Shown: positions 9,371 to 23,702, counted from the first letter of the stretch. The stretch is DNA of 64,000 nt from Methanolobus sp. ZRKC5 (GCF_038446525.1 NZ_CP151792.1:1860001-1924000); one strand, 5' to 3'. The notes: a model not told the origin generated them from the sequence alone. Made by a program: numbers and translations.

Positions 9371-9802
9371 TTATTCTTCCACAACAGTGAGCTTTTTCAT
9401 TACGTCTTTTCCCTTGATCTTATTGACGACGTCCATGCCTTCAATTACCTGACCAAAGACAGTGTGTACGCCATCAAGGTGTGGTTGTGCTGAGTGTGTA
9501 ATGAAGAACTGGCTTCCGCCTGTGTCCTTTCCGGCATGTGCCATTGAAAGTGCGCCTTTGCCGTGTTTACGTGGGTTATTTTTTGTTTCACACTTAATTG
9601 AATATCCGGGACCGCCTGTGCCGGTTCCTGATGGACATCCTCCCTGGATCATAAAGTTTGGGATCACTCTGTGGAATGTGAGTCCGTCATAGAATCCTTC
9701 TTTGATCAGCTTCTCGAAGTTTGCTACGGTCTTTGGTGCATCCTTTTCGAACAGTTCCAGGGTAATAGTTCCTTTATCGGTTTCAATGATTGCTTTCTTC
9801 AT
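9371..9802 (-). CDS. Peptidyl-prolyl cis-trans isomerase, cyclophilin type
   Basis: A cytoplasmic single-domain cyclophilin of 143 residues that catalyses proline isomerisation during folding. The core motifs are intact: [13 protein letters not shown] with the catalytic Arg, [31 protein letters not shown], and the SMAHAG segment. Its length matches the short archaeal/bacterial PpiB type. AGGTG lies five bases before the ATG. It stands alone between modA and the prepilin cassettes. Confidence 0.96.
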
Positions 9803-9882: not shown

Positions 9883-11343
9883 TTAATCGATGGTAGCTTC
9901 AAGCTCGTTTCTCGTCACGTGGAGGAAAGAAATAAGGTTGCCTCCTCCATCATATAGGAGAGTGTATTCGGAATCTATTTCCTCCACTTTATTATTTTGT
10001 TTTTCCTCCCATGTACAGTCAATGGTTCCTTCCAGTGCCATGAGCTTGAAGTAGTGCATGGTTATGTTGTATAACGACTGCGTATCACCATCTACGATTG
10101 TCATGTTTGGTATCATTGTTGTGGGGCTGGTCACATTCCAGGAGTACTCTTCAATTTCTCCATCGGAATATTCCATAAGATAAGTTTCATTTAAGAAGTC
10201 GAAGGTACAATTTGCATGCTTCTTGTTGTCAGGGTCTTCATATTTTGTAAATTCACTGCCTGCATCTACCCATGTCTCCCAATTGGTACTGACAGCAGAA
10301 TCCCTGTATTTGACATGTTGTATGGTTGTCTTATCGGTCTCATATTCTATCTCTTTTGTTCCAGATGAGGCCCTGAGCCAAAATTGTGCGGAATTAAAAT
10401 TTGATGCATCTGTTGTTATTACATCAATGTAAAATGAAAAATTGTAGATAGGTTCTGGATCAGTTTTGTTCAATCTTGCAAATTTGAAGTTTTGAGACAA
10501 TGGGTATGTTCCCATTTCGGGTTCTGTATCCAGTTCGATAATAGCTGTCTTGTTCTCATGATCCAGGGTTGCTGTGGTGGATATAAGAGTTTCTGCATAG
10601 TCTGCCCAACCGTCATAGAACTCGCTCTGGATGTAAATGATTATCTTGTCAACATCAAGTGGATTGACAAAAATACTGTTGAGGGTGGTATTCGGAAATA
10701 ATATCTCAGGGTCGTTGGAGGATGCAATAGCGATTGATGCATCGGTGGTTCCTGCAACGGAAGTATTCCCTTTTATCTGCATAATGGGAAGTGTCAGGGT
10801 TTCACCATTGAAGTGAAACTCAGGAGGTGATATCATTATTGTTCCGCCTGTAGGATATCTGGACCAGACACCTCCACCCTCATAGGCAATTATGCGATCA
10901 TTGTATGTGTATACGATCTTTCCCATCGATGTGTTAAATCCTGCAAAGTCTGTCTTATTCTCATAGTCTGCCCATGCATTCCAATAACTACGATTCTGGT
11001 AAAAATCATCATACCATGTTGAATTTGATGAAAGTCCTATGATCATTATCTGGCTTTCATTGTAGGCATCATCGTCCCCCATAATTTCCACATTACCACC
11101 CATCAGGGAAAGTCTGGTTGTTTGAAGGGGAGATTCCCCAAGGGCTGCCTTGCTTGTTCTTGAGTCAAAGACTGTAAAAGCCTGCTCTATTTTCTGGGCT
11201 TTAGCCATGTCTTGCATGCTGTCTATTGCAGGCATGGTGTAGAGTATCATTATACCTATTGACAGGAGCGTGATTGCCAGCATTATTACAATTCCTACAA
11301 CCGACGAAACAGCAAGTTTATTCCCTGACAGATCCTTTCCCAT
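9883..11343 (-). CDS. Prepilin-like protein, cassette B gene 6 (large; DUF7289-like)
   Basis: A 486-residue secreted protein with a class III signal: charged leader, then NKLA^VSSVVGIVIMLAITLLS, the form cut by archaeal prepilin peptidase (^ marks the likely cut). The ectodomain carries features shared with three other proteins here: ALGESPLQTTRLSLMGG, EGGGVWSRYPTGGTI followed by ISPPEFHFNGETLTLPIM, and EFYDGWADY. I believe these correspond to Pfam DUF7289, whose haloarchaeal members sit beside PilB/PilC genes. It is the last gene of cassette B and a paralogue of 14660-16132, which has the same position in cassette A. The ribosome site is GGAG seven bases before ATG. Pilus subunit, minor pilin or surface fibre component is inferred. 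Confidence 0.8.
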   Translation of the reverse strand: MGKDLSGNKLAVSSVVGIVIMLAITLLSIGIMILYTMPAIDSMQDMAKAQKIEQAFTVFDSRTSKAALGESPLQTTRLSLMGGNVEIMGDDDAYNESQIMIIGLSSNSTWYDDFYQNRSYWNAWADYENKTDFAGFNTSMGKIVYTYNDRIIAYEGGGVWSRYPTGGTIMISPPEFHFNGETLTLPIMQIKGNTSVAGTTDASIAIASSNDPEILFPNTTLNSIFVNPLDVDKIIIYIQSEFYDGWADYAETLISTTATLDHENKTAIIELDTEPEMGTYPLSQNFKFARLNKTDPEPIYNFSFYIDVITTDASNFNSAQFWLRASSGTKEIEYETDKTTIQHVKYRDSAVSTNWETWVDAGSEFTKYEDPDNKKHANCTFDFLNETYLMEYSDGEIEEYSWNVTSPTTMIPNMTIVDGDTQSLYNITMHYFKLMALEGTIDCTWEEKQNNKVEEIDSEYTLLYDGGGNLISFLHVTRNELEATID

Positions 11344-11363
11344 TTTTTAACTCCATATGATTA

Positions 11364-12134
11364 TTAATCGATAGTAACGTCCATGGCCGCCTTGACGATG
11401 TATACATCTATATTTTCGGTATAAATCTTACCTGCTAAAACAGTTTGAGTCGTCTCGTTAAGCTCTATGGTTGACATGCCAAGGTGTTCGTTCAGGTATC
11501 TTTCCCATGCTTCAAAGTAATCGCTTGTTATCGTTATGTTTACCTCTGATACATTCTGGTAGCTTTCAATAGATCTTCTTCCTGCATCAGCAGTAACCCG
11601 CACAAGTCCTGATCCGGAAACCGAGCTGCTGCCTGAAATACTTGCATCCGGTATCGCAAGTACATTATTTGCATAGGTAAAACGCGGCTGTGCAAGCATG
11701 ATTGAATCTCCTGAACTGTATCTGGCCCAAACACCGCTATTCTCATAAGAAATTAAAGTGTCTTGGAAATCATTCTCTACATTTCCCATCTTCTTTCCAA
11801 ATGATAATGTTTCAGAGGAACCTGCTGAATTATTCCAGACCTGCATGCTTATATTGATATAATTATTCCCTGTTACAGAAAGTGACCCACCATGCATTTT
11901 CAGTTCAACTGACTGAGCAGGAGCATTTCCGAATACCACTTTATTCACGTTTGGTGCAAGCACCTTAAAACTTTGCTTTATATTCTCGGTGTGCTGGGTT
12001 TCCTGCATATGTTCTAACATCGGCACGCCAGCTACTACGATGATTCCGGTTGCAAGAAGTATGATGCTTAGAATGATGCTGTAGTCTACCATTTCTGATA
12101 CTGCATCATCCGATTTAGTAAAATTATTTTTCAT
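11364..12134 (-). CDS. Prepilin-like protein, cassette B gene 5 (DUF7289-like)
   Basis: A 256-residue protein with a class III signal, KSDDA^VSEMVDYSIILSI, and one N-terminal helix. The ectodomain shares GNAPAQSVELKMHGG, ENSGVWARYSSG and DYFEAWERYLNE with its cassette A counterpart at 16162-16938, and the same motif set in weaker form with the large proteins of gene 6. Genes 5 and 6 therefore look like an old duplication within the cassette. It lies 16 bp after gene 4 and 20 bp before gene 6. Role in a type IV pilus-like structure is inferred from the signal and family resemblance. Confidence 0.8.
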   Translation of the reverse strand: MKNNFTKSDDAVSEMVDYSIILSIILLATGIIVVAGVPMLEHMQETQHTENIKQSFKVLAPNVNKVVFGNAPAQSVELKMHGGSLSVTGNNYINISMQVWNNSAGSSETLSFGKKMGNVENDFQDTLISYENSGVWARYSSGDSIMLAQPRFTYANNVLAIPDASISGSSSVSGSGLVRVTADAGRRSIESYQNVSEVNITITSDYFEAWERYLNEHLGMSTIELNETTQTVLAGKIYTENIDVYIVKAAMDVTID

Positions 12135-12150
12135 GCAACTCTTCCTGTTT

Positions 12151-12627
12151 TTAAAATATTTCTATCATATTTGAGGCTGGATCGTAGTACAATATGAATT
12201 CATCTGATCCACTGAACAATTTTACCGATGCCACTTCGGTTTCGTGTACTTTGTATGGTACTTTTACCCTGGTTGCATCTTTTCCATGGGATTCAAATAT
12301 GATCTCATTGGTCTGGTTCGATAGCTCCATGGAATATTGCTGACCTGCAATCTCATCAGGAAGTGGTAATTGGAAGAAGAAACTACCGACTTCACCACCT
12401 GCATTCCGAGTTATCTGGACCGCAGTATCGATATTGGATATCTGCAATGCCATGTCGTTCCCGTGTATCTCGAACTCATCCCGCATAATGGTTTGTTCTG
12501 CCCTGTCCATCATGCTATAGAATGAGCTTATCACAACCATCATGGTTATCACTGTTATCGCCAAAGTCAATATGAAGCCCACTGAAATGGATACCGCTTT
12601 CTCATCATCTTTGAATTGTCGGATCAT
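12151..12627 (-). CDS. Prepilin-like protein, cassette B gene 4 (DUF7266-like)
   Basis: A 158-residue protein with class III signal DDEKA^VSISVGFILTLAIT and a single N-terminal helix, followed by the motif EQTIMRDEFEIHGNDMALQI that is nearly identical in its cassette A counterpart (16959-17438). It resembles the haloarchaeal DUF7266 pilin-like proteins (from memory). Its ATG overlaps the stop of gene 3 by four bases, so translation is coupled. The small ectodomain is mostly beta-like. A minor pilin or assembly pseudopilin is the likeliest role. Confidence 0.8.
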   Translation of the reverse strand: MIRQFKDDEKAVSISVGFILTLAITVITMMVVISSFYSMMDRAEQTIMRDEFEIHGNDMALQISNIDTAVQITRNAGGEVGSFFFQLPLPDEIAGQQYSMELSNQTNEIIFESHGKDATRVKVPYKVHETEVASVKLFSGSDEFILYYDPASNMIEIF

Positions 12628-13478
12628 ATCTGCCCCTTCGGTAACGTAATAGGTATTGTCACATTGATCTCAAGATGCCCGTTCTTGTTCAGTTTCATGT
12701 TGCTATTGACGACATCTACTCTTTCAATGTAGAATGGGTCTCCATTGACAAGATCGCCTGATATCAGGAAAGTGCCCATGGCCTGACTTCCATTTATGAA
12801 TTTGATGCTGTAGGTCTCGCCTATAGTCTGGTTGCTGAAATAATAATTGAAGTCAGCTGTATCGGCCTTATTTGATGTAATGTTAATTTCGCTGAATGAA
12901 TCATCTTTATGATTGAGTACAGAGCTGCTATCGTATACAGTAAGGTTGATATTGCCACTTGAATTGAACATTGTGGCTGACCAGATTGTAGTGCCTGATT
13001 GATTGTTAACTTCTATTACAAACTTGTTTGATTCATTTCTCAGTGTGGATGCATTGGGTATGGATAAAAGAAACTTGTCAGTGTAATTTACCCTCTCAAT
13101 GACCACCCAGTCATCATTTCCATCAGGTAGGCCATTCTGAGTGAAATATGCATCCTGAAATGTACCGGTGTCGAGAGAAAATATAAAGCCTGAAAGCGAA
13201 TAGCTCTCGACCATCTTCTCCGAGTAGTTCGCCATGTAGGCATCGAACGTTGCATTGTCAGATCCACTATTTGAGTCTGCATATGCCTTTTCATAAGCTT
13301 CGGTAGTGGTCTGCACAATGTTGGAAAAATCAAAGACGTTTGTCTCGATACTTGACTCAGAGGCTGTATTGCTTGCATAGACTATGTTGTTAAGCATGAC
13401 AGTCAGGACTACGATGCCTATGCCGATTATAAAACCGGCAATCAATATCATCTGTCCGGATTCGTTCAGTCTTTTCAT
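12624..13478 (-). CDS. Prepilin-like protein, cassette B gene 3 (DUF7261-like)
   Basis: A 284-residue protein starting MKRLNESG^QMILIAGFIIGIGIVVLTVMLNN, a class III signal with Gln at +1. The mature N-terminus continues IVYASNTASESS, closely matched in the cassette A counterpart (17435-18289), which is also exactly 284 residues with the start chosen here. The ectodomain is rich in Asn, Ser and Thr with several N-glycosylation sequons. GGTG lies five bases before the ATG. I believe the haloarchaeal relatives are DUF7261. Confidence 0.8.
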   Translation of the reverse strand: MKRLNESGQMILIAGFIIGIGIVVLTVMLNNIVYASNTASESSIETNVFDFSNIVQTTTEAYEKAYADSNSGSDNATFDAYMANYSEKMVESYSLSGFIFSLDTGTFQDAYFTQNGLPDGNDDWVVIERVNYTDKFLLSIPNASTLRNESNKFVIEVNNQSGTTIWSATMFNSSGNINLTVYDSSSVLNHKDDSFSEINITSNKADTADFNYYFSNQTIGETYSIKFINGSQAMGTFLISGDLVNGDPFYIERVDVVNSNMKLNKNGHLEINVTIPITLPKGQI

Positions 13479-13496
13479 GTTAACACCGTCTTCTTT

Positions 13497-14111
13497 TTAC
13501 ATTCTCCACAAAGTTATTTCCACGTCAATGAGATTATAGAAATCAGTATTTGTGTCTGCATCCGCTATGCCTGTGTAGTATTGGAATTGGGAAGAATTCG
13601 ATATGTCTGAATTTGATAATAATACTCTTCTGGATACTGTTACAGCGTTATCCGAGGGTTCACCATTGTAGATGTAATCTAAGGTCATTACGGCTCTTGC
13701 ATCATTAATCACAGCAAATTGCACATTGTGTGCTATACCTTTGGAAACGATCACACTCTCCAATAGGTCAGCTGTCGAGCTGTTTTCGAGGTTGTTATTG
13801 TTTTTAGATACGTAATCGATAGAATTCCAGGCATACTCATCTCCGTCCCAGTCCAATATGTCTTCTTTGAGGCTGGAGTTATGTCCGGATTGAGAGTGAT
13901 CGAGCACGGTCAGCATATCCTGTGCCAGGATCTGAAGCTGTGCTTCTATGTGTGCATTCGCCGTTGAGGATGTAAGAGGAGTAAGTGAAGTTGCCTGTAC
14001 AGTGAAGATTATTATTCCTGTGACGATCATGAGGGCCATGAGAGCTTCCAGGGTATGTAACTGGGCCGATGTATCGAATTTAACATTAAATGGACATTTC
14101 TCATCGATCAT
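13497..14111 (-). CDS. Prepilin-like protein, cassette B gene 2 (DUF7288-like)
   Basis: A 204-residue protein with signal KFDTSA^QLHTLEALMALMIVTG followed by the strongly conserved LTPLTSSTANAHIEAQLQ and, further on, SGHNSSLKEDILDWDG and KGIAHNVQFA. The cassette A counterpart (18310-18924) has the same length and about half its residues in common by eye. The LEALxA start and TPLTxST segment are what I remember of haloarchaeal DUF7288 proteins. Its ATG follows the gene 1 stop by one base. Confidence 0.8.
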   Translation of the reverse strand: MIDEKCPFNVKFDTSAQLHTLEALMALMIVTGIIIFTVQATSLTPLTSSTANAHIEAQLQILAQDMLTVLDHSQSGHNSSLKEDILDWDGDEYAWNSIDYVSKNNNNLENSSTADLLESVIVSKGIAHNVQFAVINDARAVMTLDYIYNGEPSDNAVTVSRRVLLSNSDISNSSQFQYYTGIADADTNTDFYNLIDVEITLWRM

Positions 14112-14112
14112 A

Positions 14113-14589
14113 TTACCACACTCTCACAGATAGCATTCTCTGAGTTTCATTCCCGGTATTTTCATCCCGGACAATGACTATTCTTTTAGTCTGGCCTATG
14201 TTTCCCTGTGTAGGCAACGTTTTCCCTGTGGAATGTATCAGTAAACCAGATGAGATGCTTTCCATTGTGATGTTGAATTCATACCGCAAGTAGGAACTAC
14301 TCATTCCATAGTATTCGATTGTACTTTCATAATCGGCATTTGTTTGATTAAAGAAATAATCAACTTTTGTACCGTTGAGCAAATTGGGTGTATGGGGATT
14401 TCCAGCACTCATGTTTTGTTCGACCATATTTGTCGAGATCCTGTCTGCTATGAGTGTCACTTCATCCGAGTTCGACTGGAAAGGGGTGAAAAGCCCTGCG
14501 GTATATGAAAAAACAAAGATGACACTTGTCAGGAAAATAGCGATGCCTATCAGGTAATCTATGTGCATCTGGCCACGGGTATCGATCAT
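14113..14589 (-). CDS. Prepilin-like protein, cassette B gene 1 (DUF7287-like)
   Basis: A 158-residue protein starting MIDTRG^QMHIDYLIGIAIFL, a class III signal, then FTPFQSNSDEVTLIADRIST, very like the first gene of cassette A (18926-19393). The C-terminus GQTKRIVIVRDENTGN...RVW is also shared. GAGG four bases before the ATG is a good ribosome site. It is the promoter-proximal gene of cassette B and resembles haloarchaeal DUF7287 proteins (from memory). Confidence 0.8.
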   Translation of the reverse strand: MIDTRGQMHIDYLIGIAIFLTSVIFVFSYTAGLFTPFQSNSDEVTLIADRISTNMVEQNMSAGNPHTPNLLNGTKVDYFFNQTNADYESTIEYYGMSSSYLRYEFNITMESISSGLLIHSTGKTLPTQGNIGQTKRIVIVRDENTGNETQRMLSVRVW

Positions 14590-14596
14590 AATTCCT

Positions 14597-14626
14597 CAAC
14601 ATATATATGTTGTCTATTATATAAAA
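14597..14626 (-). promoter_or_regulatory. Cassette B promoter with palindrome at the transcription start
   Basis: The minus-strand TATA box TTTTATATAAT (14616-14626) is preceded by TTACAATT, and the same TTACAATT plus TATA arrangement precedes cassette A at 19420-19430. A perfect 16 bp palindrome CAACATATATATGTTG lies at 14597-14612, where transcription should start. The shared layout shows that the promoter was copied with the genes. Confidence 0.6.
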
Positions 14627-14659
14627 GGATAATTGTAAATTAATTATATTTCCTGCACT

Positions 14660-16132
14660 TCATTTAAGGGTAGCTGTAAGGTCATTTCTGCTGATATGGA
14701 GATATGTTATGCTTCCTGGCATCCCATCATAATACAAAGTCAGAGTCGATTCATCGTAATCCACAGGATCTGAACCTCCTCCATGTCCATGGCCTCCGGT
14801 ACCCGGGTGATTCAAATTGAAAACTACAGATCCATCCATTGTAATGAGTTTCATATAATGCTGGGTAAGGTTGTAGAGTGATGTTGTATCTCCACTTGTA
14901 TAGGTGATATTTGGAGCAATACCCACTGAACTGCTATCATCCCAGGAAAAATCACTGCTTTCATCATATTCGAAGGTGAATGTGTGACTCAAAATGTCCA
15001 CAGATGATGCTTCATCATCATGCGAACCGCTTATCGTAAAAACATCCTGCCCATCCCATGTTTCAACTCCACCACCTGGGGCTGTATCCTCATAAATAAT
15101 GTCCATTTTCAACTGGTCTGCCCCTCCTTTTTTTGCCAGGGTGTAGGTGAGTGTCCTTGTGCCCGATGATGCAGTTATCTTGTAATTGCTTGGATTGAGT
15201 CCGGCATTACCTCTTGCTTCCAGATCAAGGGAAAAATTGTATATTGGTGCAGGACTTGATTGGTTTACTGCTCCAATCTTGAAGGCTTGTTTCAGAGTGT
15301 CTTTTCCCATGGCAGGAATGACTTCAAGTTCGACAACGGCTGTTTGATTCACAGTGTCTGCTGTGGCGCTGGCATATGCAAGTGAATTTGCATAATCTGC
15401 CCATGCGTTGTAAAATTCGCTCTTGATGTAAATTATCACTTTATCTGATGTCAGAGGATTTGTTCTTCTTGAATCTAAAGGATCCGGATACAATATTGTT
15501 GGCATGTTGTCAGAGCTGACGGTGATATCGACATCAGATCTTCCATCGTATGCGGTATTTCCTTCTATACTCATTATTGGAAGTGTCAAAGTTTCCCCAT
15601 TGTAATGGAATTCAGGTGGGGATATCATAACCGATTTTCCATTAGGATATTTGGACCACACTCCTCCTCCTTCATATCCGATAACTCTGTCTTTGTCACT
15701 GTACACAATACTTCCCATTGACGCATTGAACTCGTTCATCTCAGGATTACTGGTATAGTCCTCCCAGGATCTCCACTTATCCTTGTTCTGTTTGAAAGCA
15801 TCATACCATGAAGCATCAATATCTACAGAGATGATAACTATCTGGCTTTCTTCATAGGATTGGTTATCACCATTAACTTTTATGTCACCTCCTGTCATAG
15901 AAAAGGAAGTGCTCTGGCTTGGCGATTCTCCGAGTGCGACTTTGCTTGTACGTGAATCAAATATCGTGAATGCCTGTTCCACCTTCTGGGCATTTGCCAT
16001 ATCCTGCATTTCGTATATTGTTGGCACACCATAAAGAAAAATCATACTTACAGATGTAATTGTAAGTGCCAATAGCATTATCATTCCCACAACGGATGAA
16101 ACGGCTTTTTCAGATCGTATTAATTTTTTCAT
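14660..16132 (-). CDS. Prepilin-like protein, cassette A gene 6 (large; DUF7289-like)
   Basis: A 490-residue secreted protein. I place the start at ATG 16132 (MKKLIRSEKA^VSSVVGMIML), which has GGGTG four bases upstream; an 11-codon upstream extension has no ribosome site and would spoil the short charged leader. The shared ectodomain motifs are ALGESPSQSTSFSMTGG, EGGGVWSKYPNGKSVMISPP and EFYNAWADY. Near the C-terminus is a His/Gly-rich insert (GTGGHGHGGGSDP) absent from its cassette B partner, possibly metal binding. It is the last gene of cassette A; cassette B begins 70 bp downstream with its own promoter. Confidence 0.8.
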   Translation of the reverse strand: MKKLIRSEKAVSSVVGMIMLLALTITSVSMIFLYGVPTIYEMQDMANAQKVEQAFTIFDSRTSKVALGESPSQSTSFSMTGGDIKVNGDNQSYEESQIVIISVDIDASWYDAFKQNKDKWRSWEDYTSNPEMNEFNASMGSIVYSDKDRVIGYEGGGVWSKYPNGKSVMISPPEFHYNGETLTLPIMSIEGNTAYDGRSDVDITVSSDNMPTILYPDPLDSRRTNPLTSDKVIIYIKSEFYNAWADYANSLAYASATADTVNQTAVVELEVIPAMGKDTLKQAFKIGAVNQSSPAPIYNFSLDLEARGNAGLNPSNYKITASSGTRTLTYTLAKKGGADQLKMDIIYEDTAPGGGVETWDGQDVFTISGSHDDEASSVDILSHTFTFEYDESSDFSWDDSSSVGIAPNITYTSGDTTSLYNLTQHYMKLITMDGSVVFNLNHPGTGGHGHGGGSDPVDYDESTLTLYYDGMPGSITYLHISRNDLTATLK

Positions 16133-16161
16133 TCTACACCCACCCATTTTACTTCTTAATT

Positions 16162-16938
16162 TCACTCTACAGTCACGCTCATAGGAGAAACTGTTATGAA
16201 AACATCGATATTTGGATTGTAATCCTTTCTTACCTGAATCGTCATGTTGCTTGCGTTTACATATGTTGTCTGCATTCCGATCGATTCATTAAGATATTTT
16301 TCCCATGCTTCGTAATAATCGCTTGATAGTGTAATCTCAACCTGTGACACATTGTTATAACTTTCAACTAAAAGCTGACCACCGTTTGATACCACACGGA
16401 TCAATCCCGATCCTGATATTCCTTCATTGCCTGTGATCGTTACCATGGGTATTAACAGTGAACTGTTGTCATATGCAAATACAGGTTTTGATATTGCAAT
16501 TGCACTTCCCTGTGGATATCTGGCCCATGCGCCGGTATTCTCATAGGCGAACGATGTGTCCATGTATTCATTTTCTATCGCACGTAATTGCCTTTCAAAC
16601 GAGATCGATTCAATTGAGGACGTGGATTCATTCCACATGTCCATGCTTACATTCATGTAGCTATTACCCGTGACGGAAACTATACCACCATGCATCTTTA
16701 GTTCTACAGACTGGGAGGGAGCTTTACCTGCCGCTATTTTATTCATGTTTGGGGTAAGTACTGAGAAACTCTGTCGGATGTTCTCCTGATATCCTGATTC
16801 TTTCATATGCTCAACCAAAGGGTACCCTACAACAGCTATGATTCCAATTGCCAGAAGCATCATTCCAAGTGTTATGATGAAGTCCAGAACTTCCGTAACC
16901 GCATCATCAGAAAAGACTGATCTTTTTCTTCTTGTCAT
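16162..16938 (-). CDS. Prepilin-like protein, cassette A gene 5 (DUF7289-like)
   Basis: A 258-residue protein with signal SDDA^VTEVLDFIITLGMM and ectodomain motifs GKAPSQSVELKMHGG, ENTGAWARYPQG, SGSGLIRVVSNGGQ and DYYEAWEKYLNE. It is the counterpart of 11364-12134 and shares weaker similarity with the large gene 6 proteins, which suggests genes 5 and 6 arose by duplication before the whole cassette was copied. The ectodomain carries many N-x-S/T sequons, consistent with a glycosylated surface protein. Confidence 0.8.
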   Translation of the reverse strand: MTRRKRSVFSDDAVTEVLDFIITLGMMLLAIGIIAVVGYPLVEHMKESGYQENIRQSFSVLTPNMNKIAAGKAPSQSVELKMHGGIVSVTGNSYMNVSMDMWNESTSSIESISFERQLRAIENEYMDTSFAYENTGAWARYPQGSAIAISKPVFAYDNSSLLIPMVTITGNEGISGSGLIRVVSNGGQLLVESYNNVSQVEITLSSDYYEAWEKYLNESIGMQTTYVNASNMTIQVRKDYNPNIDVFITVSPMSVTVE

Positions 16939-16958
16939 TTTGTTTTGTTCCCATGTGC

Positions 16959-17438
16959 TCAGAATATTATGATGGCATCTTTATCGGGTTCGTATGTCAT
17001 TACATACTCATTTTTCTGACTATATAGTGTAGTTGAATAGACTACTGCGTTATCGGCATAATATGGAACTTTTACTATCGTTTCATCTCTGTCATCTGAT
17101 GTGAGCACAATATCCTTGGTGCTGTTAACAAACTCTAATGAATATGTTTTTCCTGCGATCTTGCTAGGCAGGGACAGCTCATATCTTATTTCTCCGATCT
17201 GCGATCCGGAGTTCTCTGCAGCACCAATCATGGTGTCCATAGATGCAATACGCACAGCGATATCACTTCCATGTATCTCAAATTCGTCACGCATCACGGT
17301 TTGTTCTGCCTGATCCATCAGGCTGTAGAATGAACTGAGAACCATGACAAGCATTAGGACTGTTATCGAAAAAGTAAGTATGAATCCAATTGAAACTGAA
17401 ACCGCATTCTCATCGCTACATATGTTCCGTAGTGTCAT
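16959..17438 (-). CDS. Prepilin-like protein, cassette A gene 4 (DUF7266-like)
   Basis: A 159-residue protein with signal SDENA^VSVSIGFILTFSIT and then EQTVMRDEFEIHGSDIAVRI, almost the same as its cassette B partner at 12151-12627. GGGAG six bases before the ATG is a strong ribosome site, and the start overlaps the stop of gene 3 by four bases, exactly as in cassette B. Minor pilin or pseudopilin role is inferred. Confidence 0.8.
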   Translation of the reverse strand: MTLRNICSDENAVSVSIGFILTFSITVLMLVMVLSSFYSLMDQAEQTVMRDEFEIHGSDIAVRIASMDTMIGAAENSGSQIGEIRYELSLPSKIAGKTYSLEFVNSTKDIVLTSDDRDETIVKVPYYADNAVVYSTTLYSQKNEYVMTYEPDKDAIIIF

Positions 17439-18289
17439 ATGTTTCTCCCTGGCAACGATACCGGTAAATTACGGACCATATTCATTTCACTAGAGCTCAT
17501 GGTGAAAGTCGGATTGATCACCCGGTGCCTTGCATATGCAAAATCCTCTCCTGAACTGAGTTTTCCTGAAAATGTGAAGTATCCCACTGCATTGCCGCCA
17601 TGGAGGATATTTATTGAATAATCATTTCCATCTGTATTATCTGAAAAAAAGAATGACCCTGAAGGGTTGGAGTCAATTTTATTTCCGGTTATGTTGATCA
17701 GGGTGGCTGCTGTATATGTTCCTATTACTGATGACTGATCTGAAACAGTGGCGTTTATAATGCCGCTTGAGTTGTAAAGTTCAATGGACCATAGGGTAGC
17801 GGAACTATTCGTAATTGTTATTGTCAGGCTGTCAGAGCTATCTCCTAGTTTTGATGTGTCGGGGATTTCCAGCAAAAACACATCTGTGGTGTTGATGTTA
17901 CTGGCAACTGTCCAATTATCTCTTCCATCCACGAGTCCAGTTTGGGTGAAAAAAGGTTGATGCAATGTAGTATTCTCACAATTAAAAGTAAATCCTGAGA
18001 TCGCGTAGTTTCTGGAAGCTATCTCTATGTACATATCTATGTACTGTTCAAAGGACGTATTATTGAAACTTCCATCTTTCATAGCATACTTGTAAGCATC
18101 TTCATAGCTTTCTGATGTCATCTGGACAGCATTTGAAATCTCGTAACGCGAAGTATCAATACTTGATTCTGAGGCAACGTTACTGGCATATATGACATTG
18201 TTCAGCATGATGGTAAGCACAACTATGCCGATTCCCAGTGCAAACCCTGTAACAAGGAGTAATTGCCCACATTCATCCAGTTTTTTCAT
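17435..18289 (-). CDS. Prepilin-like protein, cassette A gene 3 (DUF7261-like)
   Basis: I choose ATG 18289 (MKKLDECG^QLLLVTGFALGIG) over the TTG five codons upstream, because it gives the same 284-residue length and the same leader as the cassette B counterpart (MKRLNESG). The mature start is QLLLVTG with a long hydrophobic helix, then VIYASNVASESS. The ectodomain is Ser/Thr/Asn rich. The -1 Gly and +1 Gln fit a prepilin peptidase site. Confidence 0.8.
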   Translation of the reverse strand: MKKLDECGQLLLVTGFALGIGIVVLTIMLNNVIYASNVASESSIDTSRYEISNAVQMTSESYEDAYKYAMKDGSFNNTSFEQYIDMYIEIASRNYAISGFTFNCENTTLHQPFFTQTGLVDGRDNWTVASNINTTDVFLLEIPDTSKLGDSSDSLTITITNSSATLWSIELYNSSGIINATVSDQSSVIGTYTAATLINITGNKIDSNPSGSFFFSDNTDGNDYSINILHGGNAVGYFTFSGKLSSGEDFAYARHRVINPTFTMSSSEMNMVRNLPVSLPGRNI

Positions 18290-18309
18290 TCCATCACTTT
18301 CCAATGTTC

Positions 18310-18924
18310 TTACATTCTCCAGAGTGTCATTTTGATATTGACAATATTGTAAAAATCACTACTTGTATCAGCATCAGGTATTCCTGTATTTGTCATAAAA
18401 ACAGATGTGTTCCCAACCTCATAATCTGAAAGGACTACTTTTTTAGAGATGATCACAGCATTGTTGGATGGATCGCCATTATATATGTAGGGACTCGACA
18501 TCTCAATGCCATTTTCATTTATCCGGGCGAAATGGACATTGTGTGCAATTCCTCTGGGGATTGCAATAAATAGGAACATATCACCAAGGGAACTGTTTGA
18601 AAGGGTCGTGTTGCTGGAATCTCTTGATCGGTATGCTGTTCCGTTCCATACATATTCTGTTCCGTCCCAACTCAGTACGTCATTCTTAAGATCGGAGTTG
18701 TGGCCAGATGGTGTGTAGGAAAGTGCATTTAGCATATCCTGGCCAATGGTCTGCAGCTGGGCTTCGATATGTGCATTTGCAGTTGATGATGTGAGTGGTG
18801 TCAGAGAGGTTGCTTCTACTGCGAACACAATCACTCCAACCATTATCAGTGCTGCCATTACCGCCTCAAGTGTATGCATCTGGGCGTGTGAATTCTTTTT
18901 CATATAAAAGATATTCCAGTTCAT
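18310..18924 (-). CDS. Prepilin-like protein, cassette A gene 2 (DUF7288-like)
   Basis: A 204-residue protein with signal KKNSHA^QMHTLEAVMAALIMVG and the conserved LTPLTSSTANAHIEAQLQ, SGHNSDLKNDVLSWDG and RGIAHNVHFA blocks seen in cassette B gene 2. The C-terminus MTLWRM is nearly identical in both. Its ATG is one base after the gene 1 stop, with GGTGTGG just upstream, so the two genes are translated together. Confidence 0.8.
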   Translation of the reverse strand: MNWNIFYMKKNSHAQMHTLEAVMAALIMVGVIVFAVEATSLTPLTSSTANAHIEAQLQTIGQDMLNALSYTPSGHNSDLKNDVLSWDGTEYVWNGTAYRSRDSSNTTLSNSSLGDMFLFIAIPRGIAHNVHFARINENGIEMSSPYIYNGDPSNNAVIISKKVVLSDYEVGNTSVFMTNTGIPDADTSSDFYNIVNIKMTLWRM

Positions 18925-18925
18925 A

Positions 18926-19393
18926 TTACCACACCCTAAATGACATTATGGTTGCTTCTGTATTTCCTGAATTTATATCTTTCAACAAGACTATTCTTTT
19001 TGTCTGGCCAACATTGACACCGGTTGGTATTACTTTCCCAGAAGTGTTGATAATCCCTGTTTTGTTTTCCAGTGTGACATTAAGGTCGTATCTAAGATAT
19101 GATCCGTTCAAGCCAAGGTAGTCAACAGTATGGGTGTAATTTCCATCCAGTTCTGCAAATAACAGATCGACTTTTGCCTTATTCACCATGTTAGGAACAG
19201 TTTCATCACCTTCGTTCAGGATATTCTCAACCAGGGCTGTTGAAGTCCTGTCAGCAATCAACGTAGTTTCATCAGAATTTGAGATGAAAGGGGTGAATAT
19301 TCCGGAAGTGTAGTTGAATACAAAGATGACTACGAACAAGAAAATAGTGATGCTGATGAGGTAATCTATAGTTATCTGGCCTTTTTTGTCCAT
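18926..19393 (-). CDS. Prepilin-like protein, cassette A gene 1 (DUF7287-like)
   Basis: A 155-residue protein starting MDKKG^QITIDYLISITIFL with a class III signal, then FTPFISNSDETTLIADRTST. It heads the upstream copy of the six-gene cassette and is the counterpart of 14113-14589. The promoter lies in the 137 bp gap to mre11, which is transcribed divergently. A structural or assembly role in a type IV pilus-like filament is inferred. Confidence 0.8.
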   Translation of the reverse strand: MDKKGQITIDYLISITIFLFVVIFVFNYTSGIFTPFISNSDETTLIADRTSTALVENILNEGDETVPNMVNKAKVDLLFAELDGNYTHTVDYLGLNGSYLRYDLNVTLENKTGIINTSGKVIPTGVNVGQTKRIVLLKDINSGNTEATIMSFRVW

Positions 19394-19406: not shown

Positions 19407-19430
19407 TAATTAGTAGCTAATTATATAAAA
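19407..19430 (-). promoter_or_regulatory. Cassette A promoter
   Basis: The minus-strand TATA box TTTTATATAAT (19420-19430) is preceded by TTACAATT, the same arrangement as before cassette B. A palindrome with 7-base arms (TAATTAG-TAG-CTAATTA, 19407-19423) overlaps the downstream edge of the TATA box. The transcription start is expected near 19400. Confidence 0.55.
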
Positions 19431-19530
19431 AACAATTGTAATATATTAGTTGTATTTATTTCACATGTTCGAGGCATTGGCTTCTATACCCCAAACAATT
19501 AAAAACAGCAAATACATATCATAATCCCTG

Positions 19531-21042
19531 ATGGATGAAATAAGGATAGTCCACACAGGGGACACACATCTTGGATACCGGCAATATCATAGTGATGTAC
19601 GCCGGCAGGATTTTTTCAATGCTTTTTCCACTGTGGTGGACGATGCTATTAGTATGAGCGTGGACGCTGTAGTACATGCAGGTGACCTGTTTGATTCCAG
19701 GAATCCCACACTTGATGATATTCTTGATGCCATGGGTCTGTTCTCAAAACTGAAAAGTGCAGGAATTTCGCTCCTTGCAATCGTTGGTAATCATGAGAGC
19801 AAACAGAGTACGCAGTGGCTTGACCTTTACAGCAGCCTTGGTCTTGTAATTCGTCTTGGTACAGAGCCTTACAGGCTGGGTGAGCTTGCCTTATATGGTA
19901 TTGACAGTGTTCCAAAGACAAAGATACCCTTATTTGATTATTCCATATTTGATGACAAGGCAACCGATGCAAAGTATAACCTGTTTGTAATGCACCAGCT
20001 CGTAAAACCCTTCGCCTTTGGTGACTGGGACATAAAAGAGGTAATTGACTCTATTCCTTTTGATGTGCATGCAGTACTTCTTGGAGATAACCACAAGCAA
20101 GAAATAACCACAGTCAATGATGCATGGGTCACCTACTGTGGCAGTACCGAGAGGAACAGTACTTCAGAACGCGAACCACGCTCCTACAATATAGTCACCA
20201 TCGGGGGAACTGGTATTGAGATAAGTAAGCGTGCAATTAAGACGCGTGAATTTGTATTCATACCTGTCAATCTCACGGAAGATTCGGATTCTCACGAGGA
20301 TGTATTTTCCGCAGTAATGGAACATGACATTGAAGAGAAAGTTGCCTTCGTGGAAATATCAGGCGATGTCAGGGTAAAGCTGGATTTCAGTGAAATAGAG
20401 AAGTTCCTTTTGTCAAGAGGTGCACTGGTTCCGGGGATAAAGGATCTTCGCAGTGGAGTCGATACACTGGAAGATTCCTCTTTGAAAGTCTCTTTCTCAG
20501 ATCCGGACGATGTCGTCAAAGAAGAGATTAAGAAAATGGACCTTACGTCTGGCGGTCTATTGCTTGATGATATAATAAGGGATCCACGTATAGTGAAGAC
20601 AAGAGTCGGTGATGAGGCCGAGTCTAAATTAGGACAGTTGCTTGAAAATATCGATTTTACGAAATATGTTCCTGTTAACGCTTCCTATGTACTTTCCGAT
20701 GATGCAGCGATGGTGGTATCCGAGTCTGCGATGACTGAATATGGTCATGCAGTTGAAACAGTGACCGAATCTGAAAAGAAAACATCGGATGATACTCTAA
20801 TAGATGTGGTTCAGAAGTCCGACGGTTCTGAAAAAACAGATATGCCCGTTTCTGATAATTCTAACGATATAGTGCCTGTTAAAAAATCTAAGGAAACAGG
20901 AGCTACTGAAAAAATGGACATGTCTGAGGACTCAGTAGTAGTGGATGATGCTGAGCATAGTGATAAAAAGCAGGTCAAAGCTAAAAAAACAGAGCCTGAA
21001 ACTGTAAAACCCCGCCAGTACAATCTGGGTGATTACCTTTGA
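19531..21042 (+). CDS. mre11: DNA repair nuclease Mre11
   Basis: The nuclease of the Mre11-Rad50 complex, which processes DNA double-strand breaks. Its phosphoesterase motifs are GDTHLGYRQ (residues ~10), HAGDLFDS (~47), GNHES (~83), MHQL and LGDNH (~187). The last replaces the more usual GHxH with GDNH; I recall the same form in haloarchaea, and Asp could still bind the metal. After about residue 390 comes a low-complexity Ser/Asp/Lys/Thr tail ending YNLGDYL. No ribosome site is visible before ATG 19531, so it may be nearly leaderless. Its stop shares one base with the rad50 start (TGATG). Confidence 0.95.
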
Positions 21043-23702
21043 TGTTAAAACGATTAAATGTTGAGAATATCAGGAGCTATAAGGAACTGGACATTTCGTT
21101 CAAGAATGGTGTCACAGTGGTATCAGGTGTTAACGGAAGTGGTAAATCCAGTCTTCTGGAGGCATGTTTCACAGGACTTTTTGGAAGCAAGACTCTGGAT
21201 AAGGACTTCGTACTTTCCGATATCATCACCAAGGGTGCTTTAAAGGCATCAATATTGCTTGAATTCGAGCAGAATGGACATAATTATTCTATAGAGCAGT
21301 CTTTCAGGAACGACCCGGAAAAAGGACGTGCTTCCAATACTAAATCCATCTTCAGGAAGGATGGAGATATCATATTTGACCAGGCAACGCGGACCTATGA
21401 ATCAGTGACATCCCTTTTGAATATGGATGAAGAAGCTTACAGGAATTGTGTTTACATACGCCAGGGTGAAATCGATGTTCTCATCAACTCCAAACCCAAA
21501 GACCGCCAGAAAATGATAGATGACCTCCTGCAACTTGGCAAACTGGAAGAGTACCGGGAACGATCTTCAAGTGCCAGGGTTGGAGTTGGGCGGCATCAAC
21601 GTGATAATGAAAGACGTATCAAGGAATTTGGCGCGGAGATAAAGCTCGTAGAGGATACTGATCCCAGTGGTAGGCTGGCAACTCTGAAGACCAGAGCCGG
21701 GCAAATTGATTCTGAAATGGCTTCGTTCAATGAAAAGAGGGACCGCACACGTTCCCTGATAGATGAGGTCACGAAAAAACTTTCGGAGTTAAGTGAACTC
21801 TCCGACAGGAAAAAGTCGGTGGAACAACAGATAAAAGAGCTTACTGACAGAAAATCAAAATCATTCCAATCCATTGATTCATTTTCAAAAGACATTCGTT
21901 CTCATAAGGAACTTCTTGAATCCAGACAGGTGAGAGTTTCTGAAATAGAGTCTCAGTTGAAGGCTAACTCAAAAGATATTGAATCCCTGATCGTTCAGAT
22001 GGATGAAGCTGAACGTTCTTTACGGGACGCTCTTAGCGAGCTGAAAAGTAAAAAAGCAGTTTCTGAAAAAGATCTTCTCAGCATTGCTCAGTCTGTGAAA
22101 GATTCGGAAAAACAGATAAAGTCCATTGAGGATACGGCAAAAGATGCTGACTCCAAAATAAAAGGCGTTTATTCTGAGATCGAGAAACACAAAGTCAGCA
22201 TTGCAGGACTTGAGGATAAACACAAGAATATTTTGTCTAAAATAGTTTCTCTGGGTTTCATTCTTGAAAAACTTGAAAACATCGATGAGGTTCTCGACCT
22301 TGTAAATGACCAGCAAAAAAGGTTCTATGGCAGGGAATCTAAACTCAAGGTGAAGATATCTGAACTTAAAAGCAGGATTGAAAAATCAAAACAACTTCTG
22401 GCAGCTGGAAAGTGCCCCACATGTGGGCAGGAACTCAAAGGTTCATGTGTGGAGCAGTCCAGTGTTTCAGATAATGAAACAATAAAGCAACTGGAAGCAG
22501 AACTATCTGAACTTAAGGTCAAGCAGGCCGAAGCTGAAGCAAGGGTTGATAAGGTCAAATCAGCTCGCGCTTGTAAATCAGACATTGATGTTGTTCTCAG
22601 GGATATCGAGTCTGCGAAAGAGGCTATTGACAGGGATAACAAGAGGATTGAAGAGTATAAGCTGCACCTCAGGGAAGATGAGCTGAAAATAAAGGAACTT
22701 CTGTCCGGGAAGGAAGTACTGGAAAAGACCATCGACGGGACAAAAATAAAGGTAGAAGGGTTAAGGCAGGAAGAGGAATTAACCTTAAAAGAGCATTCAA
22801 AGTCCCTGGAACGCCTTGGTCTTGCCCGGGAAATGCAGAAAATAATGGGAGAGTTCGAGAAGATAACTTCCGAAATAAGGCAGATGAATGAGAAAATCAA
22901 AGGTATTCAGGAAATGATCTCACTCTTTGAAGGGCAGATAGGGGAGAAAAAAGAATCTGTAAAGGATATTGATGAGAAGATTGGAAAATTCGATAAGAAA
23001 GAGCTCGAATCTTTTAGCAAAGATTATAGTTTTGCTTTTAGCAAGATCAATTCGGAAATTGATAGGCTGAAGCTTGAAAAAGGCGAGGTAATGAAGAAAG
23101 AGGGAATGGCTGAAAATGACAGGACCCGACTTTCAGGCCTCAAAAAGAATCTGGATATGCTAAAGAACCGGGCTGATTATCTCAATGCTGTTTATTCTGA
23201 TGCTGAGAACCTTGAAAGTATGTACATGCGAATACGTGCGCAACTGCGTTCCAGCAATATACAGACGCTTGACCGGCTGATAAACGAAATATTCTCGTTC
23301 ATGTATTCAAATAATGCTTATTCTCATGTAATGCTGGACGCAGATTATAATCTCACGGTGTTCGAAAAGGATGGCACTGCTCTTGAACCCAAGCTTCTCA
23401 GCGGCGGAGAGCGTGCTTTATTCAATCTGGTACTTCGCTGTGCAATATATCGCCTGCTCTCACTTGGTACTTCATCTCATGATGGTGCCGGGCTTCCACC
23501 TCTTATCATGGACGAACCCACAGTATTCCTTGATAGGGGTCATGTGCACCAGCTAATAAAGCTCATAGACATGATGCGGGACATAGGTGTGGCACAAATT
23601 CTCATAGTTTCCCACGACGAATCCCTTATTGACTCGGCTGATCATGTATTTGCGGTTGAGAAAGACCCAGTGACAAATAATTCAGCCATATATGCAAGAT
23701 AA
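21042..23702 (+). CDS. rad50: DNA repair ATPase Rad50
   Basis: The SMC-like ATPase partner of Mre11, 886 residues from ATG 21042. Walker A is GVNGSGKSS (residues 29-37), the zinc hook is CPTCGQEL (Cys at about 458 and 461) between two long coiled coils, the signature is [12 protein letters not shown] and Walker B is [11 protein letters not shown], followed by the His switch in VSHDE. The ORF could be opened three bases earlier at TTG, but the ATG overlapping the mre11 stop is the natural coupled start. Length and architecture are standard for archaeal Rad50. Confidence 0.96.

Follow-up and report, generated by a model that had tools for sequence, protein, structure and literature searches.

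An old tandem duplication of a six-gene type IV pilin set in Methanolobus, probably served by one remote PilB-TadC engine

The genome of Methanolobus sp. ZRKC5 (G000; 3.05 Mb, one contig) contains, within an analyzed stretch of 64,000 nucleotides (GCF_038446525.1, NZ_CP151792.1:1860001-1924000; hereafter the window), a block of twelve prepilin-like genes on the minus strand (9883-19393) that form two colinear six-gene sets, set A (14660-19393) and set B (9883-14589). We consider it probable, at roughly 70%, that this block arose by an old tandem duplication of a complete, already known pilin set of type IV pili (T4P), and that a single remote engine probably serves both sets, perhaps on a PilA-type major pilin, giving either two alternative sets of tip or minor subunits or two filament types. 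Each cassette has a promoter-like element of its own in front and encodes six different subunits with class III signals, which the peptidase PibD would process; the subunits of both sets would then be assembled by a distant PilB-TadC pair (locus L050, G000:C1:284814-289260), perhaps on a PilA-type pilin encoded at G000:C1:1069724-1070212, leading to either of these two outcomes. From these genes we infer filaments that would serve in adhesion or surface recognition. Beyond what a preliminary description of the block had claimed, our comparisons indicate that the duplication is old, that the cassette moved here from another site, and that whole sets are exchanged among relatives.

The tandem six-gene duplication proposed in the preliminary description is borne out by the open reading frames (ORFs), their order and their spacing (Table 1). 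In an all-against-all BLASTP comparison, the A and B partners are reciprocal best hits in 6/6 pairs (E 1.8e-54 to 7e-150), with identities of about 45-55%. From gene 1 to gene 6 the genes are separated by 1, 20, -4, 20, and 29 bases in A and by 1, 18, -4, 16, and 20 bases in B, so that genes 3 and 4 overlap by four bases in both copies; both also have a gene 3 of 284 amino acids (aa), and the two features agree with the first description. Pfam matches above the cut-off identify DUF7287, DUF7288, DUF7266, DUF7289, and DUF7289 together with DUF7308 in genes 1, 2, 4, 5, and 6, respectively. The families suspected at the outset were thus recovered and DUF7308 added, except that gene 3 matches DUF7261 only below the cut-off in both sets. 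Because DUF7289 is present in both, genes 5 and 6 are mutually related (about 25%) within and across the sets. A class III-like prepilin N-terminus, earlier ascribed to all twelve proteins, was found in 12/12 block genes vs. 0/43 other genes of the window by a motif scan (A or G followed by Q or V, after a charged n-region and before a hydrophobic helix), which is not a trained predictor such as FlaFind or SignalP. Neither of the two findings that the preliminary description would have taken as a refutation, pairs that are not mutual best hits or absent prepilin signals, was made, the signals being judged by this motif scan. In AlphaFold2 models, A5 is predicted to have a long N-terminal helix (residues 12-69) and a beta-rich head (predicted local distance difference test score, pLDDT, 86), and A2 to have N-terminal helices and a mixed alpha/beta head (pLDDT 82).

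For set B, the gap between the cassettes probably contains a separate promoter. A TATA-like block, TTTATATAAT, lies 36 bases ahead of gene 1 in both host cassettes, in most B orthologues, and in about half of the A orthologues, and an ACAATT element just upstream is common to both host blocks. With up to two mismatches, the 20-base block of A matches the window once, against 0.03 chance matches expected. The perfect palindrome CAACATATATATGTTG ahead of B1 was considered as an operator and rejected, as it is not conserved in orthologues.

Table 1. Features of the duplicated pilin block and its borders (window positions; a slash in an N-terminus separates the A or G from the following Q or V).
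Feature	Position	Strand	Basis and remarks
A1, DUF7287 prepilin-like, 155 aa	18926..19393	-	Pfam E 4e-32; N-terminus MDKKG/QITIDY; ~51-52% identity to B1
A2, DUF7288 prepilin-like, 204 aa	18310..18924	-	Pfam E 5e-46; HA/QMHTLE; 55% identity to B2
A3, DUF7261-like prepilin-like, 284 aa	17435..18289	-	Pfam E 0.003, under cut-off; CG/QLLLV; ~44-45% identity to B3
A4, DUF7266 prepilin-like, 159 aa	16959..17438	-	Pfam E 2e-12; NA/VSVSIG; ~47-48% identity to B4
A5, DUF7289 prepilin-like, 258 aa	16162..16938	-	Pfam E 4e-24; DA/VTEVLD; ~51-52% identity to B5
A6, DUF7289+DUF7308 large prepilin-like, 490 aa	14660..16132	-	Pfam E 2e-22 and 2e-23; KA/VSSVVG; ~45-47% identity to B6
B1, DUF7287 prepilin-like, 158 aa	14113..14589	-	Pfam E 2e-36
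B2, DUF7288 prepilin-like, 204 aa	13497..14111	-	Pfam E 3e-43
B3, DUF7261-like prepilin-like, 284 aa	12624..13478	-	Pfam E 6e-5, under cut-off
B4, DUF7266 prepilin-like, 158 aa	12151..12627	-	Pfam E 2e-10
B5, DUF7289 prepilin-like, 256 aa	11364..12134	-	Pfam E 2e-29
B6, DUF7289+DUF7308 large prepilin-like, 486 aa	9883..11343	-	Pfam E 2e-21 and 3e-12
Promoter-like block ACAATTGTTTTTTATATAAT	19420..19439	-	TATA-like part starts 36 bases before A1; same distance in many A orthologues
Promoter-like block ACAATTATCCTTTTATATAAT	14616..14636	-	TATA-like part starts 36 bases before B1; within 70-base inter-cassette gap; conserved in B orthologues
mre11-rad50 pair, left border of slot, outside system	19531..23702	+	Sequence recognition; same neighbor in other Methanolobus and sister genus
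Peptidyl-prolyl isomerase gene, right border of slot, outside system	9371..9802	-	Sequence recognition; adjoins B in sister-genus locus L077

The host has two copies of the DUF7288 gene (gene 2), both inside the block, and this family is present in 104/150 genomes of the order and 193/295 of the phylum, with none in the 20/20 listed genomes of two Methanosarcina-like genera (g6, g7). Cassette numbers, whose comparison had been suggested early on, do differ: other genera of the family have a single six-gene cassette (Methanococcoides with gene 6 doubled), and the sampled Methanolobus genomes have up to both sets, with A in 21, B in 18, and both in 16, ten of which hold them adjacent and head to tail as in the host. 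In other Methanolobus genomes, a divergent five-gene cassette (type II), often with giant proteins, lies between A and B or replaces B. The labels Methanomethylovorans, Methanohalobium, Methanosalsum, Methanococcoides, Methanocella, and Archaeoglobus-type are presumptive and based on tree position.

A FastTree analysis of 59 cassettes, the genes of each concatenated, places the 23 A and the 20 B cassettes in separate clades (support 0.996 and 1.0), with cassettes of the sister genus (g8) at the base of both. Single-gene trees recover B completely for 6/6 genes, and A completely with gene 5 and with all but two members for the others; large-scale gene conversion between A and B was not seen in these trees, in which the gene 6 copies of G077 and G120 are the only Methanolobus A genes placed elsewhere. 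Sister-genus genomes keep A next to mre11 and B next to the isomerase gene, with A and B now apart (L076, L077, L149, L152). Since both clades include sister-genus members and the borders are kept, the tandem array predates the split of the two genera, and these borders date it independently of the trees. Paralogue divergence, trees, and sister-genus synteny together rule out a recent duplication. The ratio of nonsynonymous to synonymous substitution rates (dN/dS) between orthologues is 0.03-0.34 in A and B; judged by this ratio, both sets are under purifying selection, with all twelve genes retained. A Methanocella-like genome (G157) has its own tandem duplication, its two copies being each other's closest relatives (support 0.999), and therefore such events have happened more than once.

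Several variants of the cassette were seen along the way. The Methanocella-like tandem cassette (L131:938-11543) has a further type II-like set nearby (L130), and only gene 6 is duplicated in the Methanococcoides-like loci L072, L073, L182, L183, L185, and L186. A Methanoperedens-like locus (L085:3518-15821) has two cassettes pointing apart, one of them with genes 3 and 4 enlarged to 560 and 605 aa, and these genes are likewise enlarged in L086. In one family of the order (f3), a DUF7288-like gene reaches about 1500 aa (L087:5003-9538).

As noted in the preliminary description, no assembly engine lies nearby: an ATPase of family PF00437 is absent within 10 kb of the block, and the six in the genome are all elsewhere, five of T4P/archaellum type and one of PIN type. 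Three of the corresponding loci, L049 (MinD-PilB-split TadC), L050, and L053, lack adjacent pilins, L052 has pilins of its own, and L051 is a separate, complete archaellum locus; the cassette locus itself is without FlaI, FlaJ, FlaH, and archaellins. One prepilin peptidase gene (PF01478) is present in the host, at G000:C1:1991121. According to searches with profile hidden Markov models of the six genes, the cassette directly adjoins PilB/TadC in nine haloarchaeal loci and in L134, and we therefore class the set by its subunits and not by its locus. The best host match of these cassette-adjacent engines is always L050 (TadC 264-476 bits vs. 182-343 for the next best). Further, an L050-type TadC is found in 49/49 cassette-bearing genomes of the family, almost always as a single copy, and in 0/20 genomes without DUF7288, where the best matches have only 33-39% identity. 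Taken together, haloarchaeal adjacency and TadC co-occurrence make the L050 pair the best candidate for the cognate engine, and the shared engine that was suspected from the start is probable in this form. As a separate observation, a type II-like pilin set in L135:1328-10526 directly adjoins a PilB/TadC pair that matches L052 and L050 about equally, and this might be a type II engine.

Alternatively, one set might be assembled by L050 and the other by L049 or L053, resulting in two fully separate pilus systems, for which three engine loci without adjacent pilins would be at hand. This is unlikely, since L050-type TadC remains single in genomes with one or two type I cassettes, the cassette-adjacent engines of other lineages all match L050 best, and L053 has diverged strongly, with about 24% identity between its PilB and the others.

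Several points weigh against the favored explanation as a whole. A cassette-adjacent engine was sought in other Methanosarcinaceae and found in none of the loci examined, so that L050 is assigned from best hits and co-occurrence. The 20 TadC-negative genomes are essentially one clade and represent one loss rather than independent ones, and the TadC tree, weakly resolved with few rows and long branches, lends weak support. L049 and L053 are further stand-alone engines, besides L052 with its own pilins. Some members of the A clade lack the A promoter block, and fold comparison with Foldseek (for A5 also with VIA-align 2) gave no informative match of the A5 and A2 models to a solved pilin or other PDB structure.

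The two sets also have separate histories. Among G033, G061, G065, G077, and G093, synonymous divergence (dS) is 0.4-1.0 for mre11-rad50, but 1.5-3.3 for most A pairs (except G061-G065) and 2.0-3.8 for B between two subgroups. By the approximately unbiased (AU) test, the cassette A data reject the flank-gene clade (p 5e-6) and the flanking genes reject the cassette-A pairings (p < 1e-28); the tested clades were picked after viewing the trees, which weakens these p-values and leaves the log-likelihood gaps (255-1013) unaffected. Since divergence is far greater in the cassettes than in mre11-rad50, and the two give conflicting trees, whole sets appear to have been exchanged within the genus. Identity shifts for all six genes together: between G033 and G077, it is 69-91% for B, as in the flanks, and 53-70% for A. 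Between G061 and G093, a break falls within A, between genes 2 and 3 (89, 79, then 61-70%). Judged from these comparisons, sets move mostly as blocks, A and B independently of each other, which argues that each set is self-contained.

This independence bears on the idea that A and B co-assemble, as obligate heteromers, into a mixed filament or tip complex of twelve components. Such a complex might be expected from the joint retention of both sets in 16 Methanolobus genomes and from their similar promoter-like blocks. However, obligate partners should be neither exchanged independently, as in G033 and G077, nor separable, and A occurs without B in G065, G110, G120, G125, and G135; we regard co-assembly as quite unlikely. 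A tentative proposal, toward which we lean less than away from it, is that the mre11-isomerase slot is a genus-wide exchange site where complete sets (A, B, or type II with giant proteins) are swapped between species and held in tandem, one engine displaying alternative, fast-changing filament heads in a serotype-like surface variation.

The slot is unlikely to be the original site of the cassette. In single-cassette genera, the usual order is the atpA/B/D region, (dapF), a FlaD/E-domain protein, genes 1-6, and a five-transmembrane (5TM) protein, followed in one case by a PilA-type pilin; the FlaD/E-domain neighbors (PF04659, E about 1e-28) are coiled-coil proteins of 446-1056 aa. In the host, genes for a PilA-type pilin, a 5TM GPDPase-like protein, and a coiled-coil protein with a FlaD/E domain (968 aa) are clustered without a cassette (G000:C1:1069724-1077079; L165:9724-17079), and the same cassette-free arrangement is found in other Methanolobus and the sister genus. 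Given this empty site and the order in single-cassette genera, the cassette most likely left the FlaD/E site for a place next to mre11-rad50, where it underwent duplication. Near-identical transposase-like ORFs of 438 aa (start MEEMLEKNSRNSSKPPSTDS) occur at L049:2801-4117, L054:7318-8634, and L165:12595-13911 and 17628-18944, the latter two flanking the FlaD/E gene at the empty site.

The cassettes may have partners among the contents of the empty site, with its pilin as a candidate major subunit and the other two proteins as candidate accessory components. The pilin, the only small PilA-type one found in the host genome, stands alone at what was probably the ancestral cassette site, and both sets may therefore consist of minor subunits only, contrary to the initial view that each set holds major and minor subunits. 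The FlaD/E protein is rejected as an obligatory partner, since three Methanohalophilus genomes have the cassette and no PF04659 match. These genomes also count against the cassettes being archaellum-related or type II secretion-like pseudopilins instead of adhesion pili, an interpretation that would draw on the FlaD/E neighbor in single-cassette genera and on the six different large subunits per set. With a separate, complete archaellum locus in the host, and with haloarchaeal cassettes that adjoin PilB4/PilC4 and not an archaellum motor, we find it very improbable. Finally, although tandem duplications are common and ORF order is identical in both sets, a recent or neutral duplication with no effect on function is hardly credible for paralogues that are only 45-55% identical, arose before the genus, and have dN/dS of at most 0.34 in both sets.

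Two complete, anciently diverged pilin sets with one likely engine constitute a clean natural experiment on engine-subunit specificity in archaeal T4P, with species that differ in the sets that they keep (A alone, A and B, or other combinations). Six unnamed DUF families are linked to a defined pilus type, with a candidate engine and major pilin supplied, and the whole-set exchange seen between methanogens would agree with viruses or partners acting as selective agents on the cell surface.

The preliminary description knew of no account of such a duplicated cassette, and none of this particular duplication was found in the literature searched; the cassette type itself is known. It corresponds to the PilB4-type (clade 2, Fig. 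4B) euryarchaeal T4P pilin set, which adjoins PilB4/PilC4 in haloarchaea (Makarova et al., 2016; PMC4858521). The pilin families are the same, adjoining PilB/TadC in haloarchaea and in one Archaeoglobus-like genome, and genes 5 and 6 appear to fit arCOG02911 (duplication-prone, 250-550 aa, class III signal). Unlike that set, the one described here is a tandem duplicate without an adjacent engine, between mre11-rad50 and an isomerase gene.

The type II cassette, found in Methanolobus, Methanohalophilus, and further relatives, has DUF7287-, DUF7288-, and DUF7289-like members arranged as in the set described here and often occupies the same slot, but it comprises five genes, lacks gene 6, has a gene 1 twice as long and genes 3 and 4 without a Pfam match, and is adjoined by giant proteins in several loci. 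These proteins of about 2000 aa (L057:3616-9513, L062:4548-16770, L080:848-6769) might be adhesins displayed by type II; the copy scanned, that of L057, has vWA and Big_1 (Ig-like) domains. The tandem cassette of the Methanocella-like genome shares the six families and the two copies, but represents an independent event.

In Haloferax, one PilB-PilC pair was shown experimentally to serve different pilin sets (PMC6491452), and PilB4-PilC4, which are expressed, are believed to assemble relatively large pilins into a structure (PMC4371748). PilB3-PilC3 with PilA1-6 (PMC4858521, PMC6491452) is similar to the arrangement proposed here in that engine and pilins are at different loci and one engine serves several pilin sets, but PilA1-6 are small, scattered major pilins rather than a six-gene block. 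This kind of cassette is already known, and what is new in Methanolobus, as far as the literature searched shows, is the genus-wide tandem pair, its probable move from a FlaD/E-linked site, its likely dependence on one remote engine, and the exchange of sets as blocks.

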